Source of the DNA: a virus
Length of the DNA: 23,384 nucleotides
Reading direction: 5' to 3' (one strand)
Virus record (IMG/VR): IMGVR_UViG_3300047494_000280
Location: 1 to 23,384 of that record
How positions within the stretch are numbered: the first letter of the stretch is position 1; each line of letters begins with the position of its first letter. Shown here in pieces: positions 9,673 to 15,696 of this stretch. The position numbers were made by a program, and so were the translations under genes. The notes below the pieces were generated by a model. That model saw only the letters and a list, made by a program, of their open reading frames with translations. It ran no database searches and had not been told where the DNA came from.

Positions 9673-10101
9673 TTGTCGGTAGCTACGTTCTCAATTGGGC
9701 GCGACGCACAACTCGTCGTCATAGGTCCGCAAGGTCGCCTTGATCTCAGCTACGTAACCGGTTTCGAAGCGCGGCAATTGACCCAGGCCGTTCGGGTTAG
9801 CAGGCTCGATGGAGTACAGATGGGTACGGAACTTCCCAAAGGCTGGGAGGGAAATTTCGAACTCGAGCGTGGAAATTCGAATGTTGAAGATTTTATTGCG
9901 GCAACTGAGCAAAGTTTTTACAGCGGTACGCTGAATCCAAATTGCACTATGTACCAATACATATCCGAGCCGGACGGCTCAACTTCTACCTATCAATATG
10001 AGAACGTTAGCTTTCGTTTGAGTAGCGCTGGTCAATGGAAAGGCGACAGCAGCGTTAGGCAGAAGCTAGAGTTTTTCGCAGCACGCCGGAGGCGAATCTG
10101 A
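9673..10101 (+). CDS. Tail tube protein
   Basis: A 142-residue protein right after the sheath, the usual place of the tube subunit that stacks as hexameric rings inside the sheath. It starts at TTG 9673 with AGGAGG at 9662-9667, well spaced. Motifs fit small tube proteins of P2/Mu-like tails: DLSYVTGFEARQLTQAVRVS, PKGWEGNFELERGNSNVEDF, and a beta-rich end with YQYENVSFRLSSAGQWKGDS. The stop overlaps the first base of the next ATG (TGATGG), so expression is coupled with the chaperone gene. Length and order agree with the family. Confidence 0.85.
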   Translation: MSVATFSIGRDAQLVVIGPQGRLDLSYVTGFEARQLTQAVRVSRLDGVQMGTELPKGWEGNFELERGNSNVEDFIAATEQSFYSGTLNPNCTMYQYISEPDGSTSTYQYENVSFRLSSAGQWKGDSSVRQKLEFFAARRRRI

Positions 10102-10436
10102 TGGCCTCTATAGGAGAACGAGAGCCCTTTGGCGAAGCCCGGACTACCGTTGACTCGTTGGGACGGGTGCTCACGATCCGAAAACTAACGGTACTTGACC
10201 GGTTGAGGTTATTCAAGGCTGCTGGCCCCGCCTTGGCAGAAAACCATCCGTGGTTTGGTATGGCTATATTGGCCTCGTGTGCTACTGCCATTGACGAAAT
10301 TCCCGTTCCTAAGCCAACAACTGAGGCGCAAATTGAAGCTATCGTTGCACGGCTTGGAGAGGAGGGACTGGCAGCGATAGCAGACGAACTAAACTCGGAG
10401 GAGGATGGCGTCCATGAGGAAAGCGCGGGAAACTAG
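10101..10436 (+). CDS. Tail assembly chaperone, short (G-type) product
   Basis: The 111-residue zero-frame product of a tail assembly chaperone pair, comparable in role to lambda gpG or P2 gpE, which binds the tape measure during tail building. It lies between tube and tape-measure-slot genes, as in almost all long-tailed phages. The N-terminus has REPFGEARTTVDSLGRVLTI and LTVLDRLRLFKAAGPALAEN; the C-terminus is acidic (LNSEEDGVHEESAGN). It ends at TAG 10434-10436, the codon directly after the slippery heptamer. This product needs no frameshift and should be the major one. The tail chaperone role is secure from the frameshift arrangement, even though the sequence of the domain is not strongly diagnostic. 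Confidence 0.85.
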   Translation: MASIGEREPFGEARTTVDSLGRVLTIRKLTVLDRLRLFKAAGPALAENHPWFGMAILASCATAIDEIPVPKPTTEAQIEAIVARLGEEGLAAIADELNSEEDGVHEESAGN

Positions 10437-10603
10437 CCCGGCACCCCGACCTGATTGACTGCTTATACCTTGTCAGGAATGGGGTGCCCTTCGACATCGC
10501 ATTCAATCTCCCGGATGACGAAAGGATTGCCTACGTCATCATTATGGGCATATTTGGCGGCCACTCATTTGACTGGCAGACAATGCGCTGGGACGCTTTC
10601 TGA
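10101..10603 (+). CDS. Tail assembly chaperone, -1 frameshift fusion (GT-type) product
   Basis: A minor 167-residue protein made when ribosomes slip back one base at GGGAAAC (10427-10433). The first 111 residues equal the short product. After the slip the frame reads CTA (10433) onwards for 56 codons: LARHPDLIDCLYLVRNGVPF and so on, closing with GHSFDWQTMRWDAF and TGA at 10601-10603. This extension has no good start codon of its own (a TGA at 10415-10417 closes its frame just upstream), so it is reachable only by shifting. The YLVRNGVPFD-AF-L-D-ER block followed by an aromatic C-terminal FDW...W resembles the downstream part of such chaperones in alphaproteobacterial prophages. It would bind the tape measure and tube. 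Amount made relative to the short form is not known. Confidence 0.85.
10427..10488 (+). promoter_or_regulatory. -1 programmed ribosomal frameshift signal: slippery GGGAAAC plus stem-loop
   Basis: The heptamer G-GGA-AAC at 10427-10433 is in the correct phase for a -1 slip and is followed at once by TAG. Six bases after the heptamer, GGCACCCC (10440-10447) pairs perfectly with GGGGTGCC (10481-10488). Inside that stem, CCTGA (10450-10454) pairs with TCAGG (10473-10477), leaving an apical loop of about 16-18 bases. Spacer length and stem strength suit a stimulatory hairpin. All pairs are read directly from the sequence. Confidence 0.88.
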
Positions 10604-10658
10604 TGTGCTGATATGTAATCGAGACATATAAAACCATTTTGGACAGACACACTAGTAA

Positions 10659-11621
10659 GTGATGCCAACATTCGAGAATACACAAGTCCTGACCAGCATT
10701 TCGCTCGCAGAGACCGGCCGCCAAGGGTTGCTGCCATGGAATTCTGCAGCTTATTCGGCTGGTCGGGGGCTGTGGTCACCCGTGCGGATTAAAGCGCCGC
10801 ATCACGTTCGAGAGCCTAGTTTCCGGAACTCAAAGTCTCAATTCGACAAACTGCAATCACCGTTCGCGGCTTTATCAAAGGCAGCAGGTGGTTTGCTTAC
10901 TATGCCTAGCAAATTTCGACGGGGACCATGGTCCGAGAGTCGGTCGATAAAGAATCGGTATGTCGCGGGTAGGACACCCCGGCCTGGCCAAGGTGTCTCG
11001 CTTCAACGGTTAACGACACTAGGGGGGAGACCTGTGGAACAGAATAGTCGAACAATCGGAGAAGCCACTAGTTCTGCGCCTCCTAAGATCATCTCACCTC
11101 GCGCATCAAGGTCTAGTCGTGACCTAATAAACAATGCCATAACGCTTGTTGAGGTGCCTCTGGTGCAGCGGCTGCGTCGAAATGTTGTGTTTAGAGACAA
11201 GTGTCCAGCCATAGATTCAATAATATTGACTAGAACCGGAAAGAGAAGTGCTGGCTTAACAAAATCAAACGACGCTAGCCGTCTGAGGCATGTACTTATC
11301 ACACGTAGATCTTTAACTCCCGGCTACCAAGAACAGTCGGAGGTCACAGTCAATAATAATCTACCGAAACGGCAATGTAATCCGCCTAATCAAAATGATT
11401 CCGATGGCTTTAAGAACCTAGCATCAAGAGACGCACCAAACCTCCAGAACAACAACATGATGAGTCCCATCCTTTCAGGATGTATCATAATTGACGGGAA
11501 CGACCTGAGTAACTGGCTCGATCGGCATCTCGCCGACGTGTTACTCTTGTCTCCAACTGGGACAACGGGTCCTGACGCCCGTCTGACGCCGCCAAGCGCA
11601 GGTTCTTCCCTGGCCTTTTAA
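10659..11621 (+). CDS. Short protein in the tape-measure slot, unusual composition
   Basis: A 320-residue ORF (GTG 10659; ATG 10662 is the next codon) occupies the place where the tape measure protein should lie, between the chaperone pair and the gpU-like gene. It is basic and rich in Arg, Ser, Asn and Pro, with little helical or coiled-coil tendency and no transmembrane stretch, all unlike a normal tape measure, which is long and helical. The last 50 residues differ: GCIIIDGNDLSNWLDRHLAD, then LSPTGTTGPDARLTPPSAGS. This recalls a C-terminal IDG--LG-WL-------P--GTT--D-R--P motif I associate with tape-measure or tail proteins of related prophages. No ribosome binding site is obvious. It may be a very short tape measure, an internally deleted one, or another protein. 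Confidence 0.5.
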   Translation: MMPTFENTQVLTSISLAETGRQGLLPWNSAAYSAGRGLWSPVRIKAPHHVREPSFRNSKSQFDKLQSPFAALSKAAGGLLTMPSKFRRGPWSESRSIKNRYVAGRTPRPGQGVSLQRLTTLGGRPVEQNSRTIGEATSSAPPKIISPRASRSSRDLINNAITLVEVPLVQRLRRNVVFRDKCPAIDSIILTRTGKRSAGLTKSNDASRLRHVLITRRSLTPGYQEQSEVTVNNNLPKRQCNPPNQNDSDGFKNLASRDAPNLQNNNMMSPILSGCIIIDGNDLSNWLDRHLADVLLLSPTGTTGPDARLTPPSAGSSLAF

Positions 11622-14186: not shown

Positions 14187-14572
14187 TAGTGGGAGACCTT
14201 CAGCATGAGTGGCGGTCCGATCTTGTCACAAACTCAACAGGAGACTTGGCGCTCACCACGAATGGCCTGCGCGGCCAGCAGCGTCTTCTCAGGCGACTTC
14301 TCACTAACCTCGGCGACTATATCTGGCATCTGGACTACGGGGGCGGCCTTGGCTCCTACGTCGGAGAGTGTGCAGACGTTAGCGGGCTCGCTGCGATCAT
14401 AAAGTCGCAAATGTTGCTCGAGTCGTCGGTGAGCTGGTCCCCGGAGCCGCGAATATCGGTCACTCAGCCGGCACCAGGAGGCGAGTCGCTCTGTGTCCAA
14501 ATACAGTATATGAGCGTTGAGATAAGCATGACAGAGGTATTAGTATTCAGCCTGAACAGTACATCACTATGA
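14183..14572 (+). CDS. Baseplate wedge protein W-like (Mu gp46 type)
   Basis: A 129-residue protein matching the small baseplate wedge subunit (P2 gpW, T4 gp25 relative) that starts sheath assembly at the hub. Conserved pattern: DLALTTNGLRGQQRLLRRLL followed by TNLGDYIWHLDYGGGLGSYV; the IW---YG-GL strand is diagnostic for gp46-like proteins. ATG 14183 overlaps the previous TGA, so translation is coupled, and the end overlaps the next ATG in the same way. Length fits the family and no defect is seen. Confidence 0.87.
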   Translation: MIVGDLQHEWRSDLVTNSTGDLALTTNGLRGQQRLLRRLLTNLGDYIWHLDYGGGLGSYVGECADVSGLAAIIKSQMLLESSVSWSPEPRISVTQPAPGGESLCVQIQYMSVEISMTEVLVFSLNSTSL

Positions 14573-15696
14573 ACCTTAATTTATTGACGTTCGATAGCAT
14601 TGTAGCTAACTCCGCAGCAGCTTTGCAGACGGCGACGTCGGCAGTTATTGACATCAGTGTCGGTTCCATATTTCGGGCGTTATTGGAAGCAAACGCTGCG
14701 ATCTGCCTGTGGATACAATGGCTGATCGTTTGCGTTTTGCGGGCAACCAGAGCATCCACCTCATCGGGGGCTGATCTTGACTCCTGGATGGCCGACTTTG
14801 GATTTACGCGTCTACCGTCGTCGTTTGCAGTGGGAAACGTTACGTTCTCGCGACACTCGGCGCTCATAAACGTCACCATACTCCCGGGCACGCTTGTCAA
14901 AACGTCCGACAATACACAAGCTTTTTGTGTCGTTGCGGACGCTCTTAATGGAGCTTGGAGCACGCAGGCAGGCGGATATGTCTTGGCATCCGGCACAACC
15001 TCTATTGAGGTTCCTGTCATCGCACAAACCGCAGGGAGCACGGGGAACGTCTTGCCACGCAAGATCACCGTAATATCGTCTGCACTCGCTGGAGTGGATC
15101 TCGTAACTAATCAGCTTGCTACAATGAATGGACAGGACGCCGAGACGGATCTGACTGCTCGGAAGCGGTTCGTCCTTTTCATCAATAGCCGGTCGAAGGC
15201 GACAATATCTTCGGTCGAAACGGCTATTTCTGGCGTGCAACAGGGGCTGTCTTACTATGTCTCTGAAAATACGGATTGTAGTAATGAGTATTGTCCTGGA
15301 AGCTTTGTTGTCACGGTTGACGACGGGTCCGGTAATCCCTCGGCTGCACTGCTCAGCGCTGTAAGCGTAGCTGTCGACGCCATACGGCCGGTAGGATCAG
15401 TGTTTAGCGTCCGTCCCCCTGTTGTGCAGCCCGTTACCCTTTCCTTCTCCGTCTTGCTCTCGGCCGATGCAAACCAAGCGGCCGTCCTAGCGGCGGTAGA
15501 AAATGCCGTTACATTGTATATCAATGGCCTATCGATCGGTGCACCTCTACCTATAACGAGGATTGCTCAAGTGGCATATGATTCCGATCCCAGGGTCTTG
15601 AATGTCACCGGCCTCACGTTGAATGGGGCGAGTTCGGATTTGACGCCAACGGTCTCCGAGTTGATAAAGCTTGCCAGCCTGTCGGTGATAGTATGA
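14569..15696 (+). CDS. Baseplate protein J-like (Mu gp47 type)
   Basis: A 375-residue baseplate wedge protein (P2 gpJ, T4 gp6 relative) that forms the ring around the hub. N-terminal pattern: IDISVGSIFRALLEANAAIC, RASTSSGADLDSWMADFGFT. The middle is the beta-rich segment (SSFAVGNVTFSRHSALINVT, LPGTLVKTSDNTQAFCVVAD), and the C-terminal domain has DAETDLTARKRFVLFINSRS, where DAE-D---R--F is the standard J-family motif, then DAIRPVGSVFSVRPPVVQPV. All expected blocks are in order. It overlaps both neighbours by ATGA, placing it in the V-W-J-I coupled block. Confidence 0.92.
   Translation: MNLNLLTFDSIVANSAAALQTATSAVIDISVGSIFRALLEANAAICLWIQWLIVCVLRATRASTSSGADLDSWMADFGFTRLPSSFAVGNVTFSRHSALINVTILPGTLVKTSDNTQAFCVVADALNGAWSTQAGGYVLASGTTSIEVPVIAQTAGSTGNVLPRKITVISSALAGVDLVTNQLATMNGQDAETDLTARKRFVLFINSRSKATISSVETAISGVQQGLSYYVSENTDCSNEYCPGSFVVTVDDGSGNPSAALLSAVSVAVDAIRPVGSVFSVRPPVVQPVTLSFSVLLSADANQAAVLAAVENAVTLYINGLSIGAPLPITRIAQVAYDSDPRVLNVTGLTLNGASSDLTPTVSELIKLASLSVIV

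Follow-up and report, generated by a model that had tools for sequence, protein, structure and literature searches.

The slippery heptamer of the lambda G/G-T frameshift is G_GGA_AAG. Frameshifting of this type is widespread in long-tailed phages; in lambda, many copies of the short form bind the tape measure protein, and the long form binds the tube protein through its T domain (PMC5009743). According to the passages of the respective papers that concern the frameshift, the gp18/gp19 pair of Burkholderia phage KL1 has GGGAAAC directly before the stop and a predicted downstream stem-loop (PMC3483164), and the Caulobacter phages phiCbK and Colossus use AAAAAAC and GGGAAAC, respectively (PMC3556154). 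A gene pair homologous to the one described here is present in the Komagataeibacter phages phiKX1 and phiKX2 (LC644975 and LC644976; PMC8566455); in phiKX2, each half of the pair is annotated as a hypothetical protein of its own, and the text of that paper does not contain the word frameshift. For the locus analyzed here, the sequence makes it very probable that a tail assembly chaperone gene carries a programmed -1 frameshift site of the lambda G/G-T type.

Gene order and anatomy of the site

The window, i.e., the whole stretch of DNA that was analyzed, comprises the 23,384 bases of a virus record. It is a contractile-tailed phage contig, in which profile matches and ORFs identify genes for terminase, portal, major capsid, contractile sheath (PHROG 23), and baseplate-type proteins. 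The chaperone gene is located between a probable tail tube gene, the stop of which overlaps the chaperone start, and a downstream gene in the tape measure position. The sheath was called by PHROG 23, and the tube and tape measure genes by position and family conservation, with no named profile. ORF 13-504, which precedes the terminase gene at the left end of the window, resembles by eye the C-terminal part of an IS630-type transposase. The features of the locus are as follows.

9673..10101, + strand: probable tail tube gene, after the sheath gene (PHROG 12993, E 1e-41, function unknown)
10101..10436, + strand: zero-frame product of 111 aa, read as a gpG-like tail assembly chaperone (ORF, PHROG, predicted fold, synteny)
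10416..10420, + strand: GAGGA, tentative candidate for a Shine-Dalgarno-like stimulator, 6 nt upstream of the heptamer (enrichment of such words)
10427..10433, + strand: slippery heptamer G_GGA_AAC (in phase; an in-phase heptamer in 95/95 loci)
10430..10603, + strand: extension in the -1 frame (T domain), 57 aa counted from the slipped Lys codon to the stop TGA (translation; kept in 95/95 loci)
10434..10436, + strand: zero-frame stop TAG adjoining the heptamer (equal spacing in 58/95 loci)
10434..10439, + strand: 6-nt spacer between heptamer and stem (spacing fixed in the ungapped 77-row alignment)
10440..10447, + strand: stem 5' arm GGCACCCC (folding, conservation, synonymous constraint)
10450..10454, + strand: inner stem 5' arm CCTGA (window fold; not conserved as such in relatives)
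10473..10477, + strand: inner stem 3' arm TCAGG (window fold)
10481..10488, + strand: stem 3' arm GGGGTGCC (folding, conservation, synonymous constraint)
10659..11621, + strand: gene in the tape measure position, 320 aa (C-terminal motif common to the same-position gene of 34 relatives)

The zero-frame ORF ends with GCG GGA AAC TAG, which places GGGAAAC in the X_XXY_YYZ phase with the TAG directly behind it, exactly as in the original prediction. The -1 frame is open from 10418, with a frame overlap of 19 nt, and from the AAA codon at 10430 to the TGA at 10601-10603 it encodes KLARHPDLIDCLYLVRNGVPFDIAFNLPDDERIAYVIIMGIFGGHSFDWQTMRWDAF; the plausible extension that had been proposed for this frame is conserved in the 95 loci introduced below. 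Taken alone, the heptamer is weak evidence because 20 other in-phase heptamers occur in the 6995 codons of the window's other ORFs (~0.0029 per codon), and the chance of finding one in a 19-nt overlap is roughly 2%. One of these, a second in-phase GGGAAAC at 14832-14838, lies inside ORF 14569-15696 with no frame change and was taken as a chance occurrence that serves as a control. Upstream of the heptamer, Shine-Dalgarno-like words were found in 32 of the 81 distinct loci, compared with ~10 in displaced windows, a count in which the Glu/Arg-rich peptide encoded there is uncontrolled for.

Conservation of the heptamer and the stem

Scans with the conceptual fusion yielded 95 loci, comprising the window, 43 loci from viral contigs, and 51 loci from genomes, the latter nearly all labelled Acetobacteraceae, Rhodospirillales, or Proteobacteria. 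The locus collections contain near-duplicates, and the number of distinct cores is 81. All 95 loci have an in-phase heptamer (GGGAAAC in 81, AAAAAAC in 11, AAAAAAA in two, and GGGAAAT in one), which removes the chance reading. In every locus, the extension is read in the -1 frame with respect to the first half, and none of the 95 has the two halves fused in one frame; thus, the frameshift reading withstood the alignment of homologues, a check named in the original prediction. The zero-frame stop directly follows the heptamer in 58 loci; in 36 it lies a further 18 nt downstream, and in one, 3 nt downstream. The frameshift signal is conserved in a group of phages of acetic-acid-type bacteria, where it was previously without annotation.

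Six nucleotides behind the heptamer, the window folds into an 8-bp outer hairpin (MFE -25.6 kcal/mol, z -5.3), which was matched in folding by none of 200 dinucleotide shuffles and by three of 300 codon-preserving shuffles. The spacing is within the 5-9 nt that separate a stable stimulatory stem from its heptamer. Both the 8-bp stem at this distance and the inner 5-bp stem, as originally predicted, are present in the window. A search of 10300-10650 against Rfam matched no family.

Among the relatives, the folding energy is better than that of codon-preserving shuffles in most of 31 distinct rows, and all eight outer pairs form in 64 of the 81 distinct cores. In the ungapped alignment of 77 rows (76 distinct), 97.9% of the cells of the outer helix are paired; with the 3' partners slid by 1-3 columns as a control, the paired fraction over the complete structure fell from 88.9% to 40-59%. 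A single outer pair is broken in some relatives, and three of the most distant loci (L043, L044, and L094) are without most of the stem. The inner stem was rejected as a general element: 74.5% of its cells are paired, and one pair is broken in 41 of the 76 rows. Given this weak conservation, only the outer stem is regarded as general. The layout of hairpin and stop that had been presented as notable is thus general only in part, the adjoining stop being seen in 58 of the 95 loci and the inner stem lacking general conservation.

Codons whose third base is paired in the outer stem show a strong synonymous bias. The His codon is CAC in 96% of cases, compared with 49% expected from the other codons of the same genes; the corresponding values are 89% and 25% for CCC (Pro), 83% and 23% for GGG (Gly), and 98% and 48% for GTG (Val). 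The Pro codon at the stem end, whose third base is unpaired, has no such bias (CCG 47% vs 51% expected). With respect to covariation, the number of paired cells and the covariation score exceed the shuffle control, and pairs with two-sided change are no more numerous than in shuffles; thus, synonymous constraint rather than covariation is the main RNA-level evidence. At pair 6, C-G is replaced by G-C in six rows, apparently from one clade, and this compensatory change may be a single event; the pair adjoining it on the loop side (columns 22/54) also occurs in A-U and G-U forms. Both the heptamer and the outer stem are under selection, and the stem is kept at the RNA level beyond the requirements of the peptide, with the synonymous constraint on paired codons as the strongest evidence at this level.

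In a different reading of the locus, the T half is a separate protein made by internal initiation, and the heptamer and stem are incidental. The original prediction had stated that the downstream frame has no usable start; this was slightly too strong, since a GTG at 10484, a weak possible start, is in frame with the T half and is preceded by AGGA at a distance of 6 nt, and the T half of phiKX2 is annotated as its own gene from an ATG. However, initiation at this GTG would cut off the conserved KLxRHPDLIDCLYLVRN part of the T half; moreover, the conservation of the GTG itself is explained by its pairing with CAC, and internal initiation leaves the in-phase heptamer of all 95 loci unexplained. 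We therefore regard separate initiation as very unlikely. Production of the fusion by transcriptional rather than ribosomal slippage could be suspected from the A6 or A7 runs at the site of some relatives; however, GGGAAAC in the window and most relatives contains no long homopolymer, and a stem at fixed spacing fits ribosomal pausing from what is generally known of recoding, which leaves this mechanism a negligible probability. A sequencing error or decayed gene, conceivable in a metagenomic contig of 23 kb, is already refuted by the homologues, as the identical split site and in-phase heptamer recur in a cultured phage and in 95 loci, some of them from isolate genomes.

Identity of the probable chaperone and its neighbors

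The first half matches PHROG 20383 (E 9e-18), a family without assigned function, and one member of the group touches PHROG 508, "tail assembly chaperone" (E 0.0096). Pfam scans of both halves and 12 members revealed no chaperone family and no match above the cut-off, and a sequence profile search against the PDB gave nothing significant. The AlphaFold2 model of the first half has a pLDDT of 87. Its best PDB match is the HK97 tail assembly chaperone 2ob9, a weak one (Z 5.1, Foldseek E 0.13, rmsd 5.6 over 95 residues), followed by 3klu (yqbN; Z 4.6). Both are below the level regarded as clear, and the list is led by chaperone-like entries only, none of which reaches that level. Gene order and predicted fold are consistent with an assignment to tail assembly chaperones, and in combination with the -1 arrangement they make this a well-supported reading of the zero-frame product.

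The gene at 10659..11621 is the probable client of the chaperones. The gene in this position encodes 248-444 aa in 33 of 34 relatives and 631 aa in L094; its length is 611-743 aa in the more distant L042, L043, L044, L094, and phiKX2. Assuming about 0.15 nm per residue, the short forms would predict contractile tails of only some 40-65 nm. Many relatives (L005, L012, L067, and L086 were compared) have an extra gene of ~100-130 aa that separates the T half from the tape measure gene; this extra gene is absent from the window (10603-10659), L019, L045, and L047. In the viral contig L006, a transposase-like set, with integrase-like ORFs recognized by eye, is located between the chaperone and tape measure genes from ~3467.

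Proposed mechanism and comparison with known systems

In the following scheme, we infer the occurrence of slippage, its rate, and the roles of both products. Most ribosomes would terminate at the TAG and release the 111-aa chaperone. A minority would pause at the hairpin 6 nt downstream while GGA occupies the P site and AAC the A site, and would slip back one base to GGG AAA; these ribosomes would then read 57 codons from the Lys codon and produce a fusion of about 167 aa. The second frame, which is in -1 phase, open through the site, and conserved, has only a weak start of its own. By analogy with lambda, the short form may form a coat on the tape measure protein, and the long form may recruit tail tube subunits, in a ratio presumably set by the signal.

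As a point against the frameshift reading, A_AAA_AAC sites are reported to be less shifty in E. coli than A_AAA_AAG sites (PMC5009743). The composition of the heptamer could point to an additional role of the host. In contrast to E. coli-type sites, no heptamer among the 95 has G as its last base; the A-site codon is Asn (AAC/AAT) in nearly all loci and AAG (Lys) in none. The genome with locus L086 (Acidisoma cellulosilyticum) encodes tRNA-Lys(CUU), tRNA-Lys(UUU), and tRNA-Asn(GUU), as identified by ARAGORN. Judging from this one genome, a dedicated CUU tRNA would read AAG without easy slipping, and AAC would therefore be the better second codon. We tentatively suggest that the slip site could be tuned to the host tRNAs, tRNA-Lys(CUU) making AAG less slippery and the strong hairpin offsetting the weaker heptamer, although we hold this to be somewhat doubtful.

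The locus provides a well-supported recoding site for a large group of phages and prophages of Acetobacteraceae, most of them uncultured; their chaperone genes lack a matching Pfam model and match only a PHROG without assigned function. It also corrects the annotation of the cultured relative phiKX2, which lists the two halves as hypothetical genes in their own right. Since the conservation of the hairpin RNA can be separated from protein constraint, the group offers a natural test set for relating heptamer, stem, and host tRNA set to the G to G-T ratio.

The phage group represented by the window resembles lambda gpG/gpG-T (PMC5009743) in that a single gene immediately preceding the tape measure gene is predicted to yield two chaperones, through -1 slippage close to where the first frame ends. 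Unlike lambda, it has the heptamer GGGAAAC, a strong conserved hairpin, a contractile tail, and no Pfam chaperone match. The HK97 chaperone, the best fold match of the zero-frame product, has 10% identity to it, and the match is of modest significance. The heptamer-stop-stem layout, which the original prediction had treated as special, was already published for KL1 and is identical to that of the window (PMC3483164); in contrast, KL1 is a siphovirus whose products are longer (142 and 264 aa) and in which another gene separates the pair from the tape measure gene, and the part of that paper concerned with the frameshift contains no conservation analysis of the stem. Both phiCbK and Colossus are alphaproteobacterial phages, and both of their heptamers are also found in the window group; however, they are large siphoviruses, for which the corresponding part of the source describes no stem (PMC3556154). 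The cultured phage phiKX2 has A_AAA_AAC TGA and the stem sequence and spacing of the window; the protein of phiKX1 and phiKX2 is only 35% identical to that of the window, and phiKX2 has a gene of 743 aa in the tape measure position. Thus, the frameshift signal is a genuine and conserved feature of the sequence that had not been described in this phage group, and belongs to a kind that is already known.
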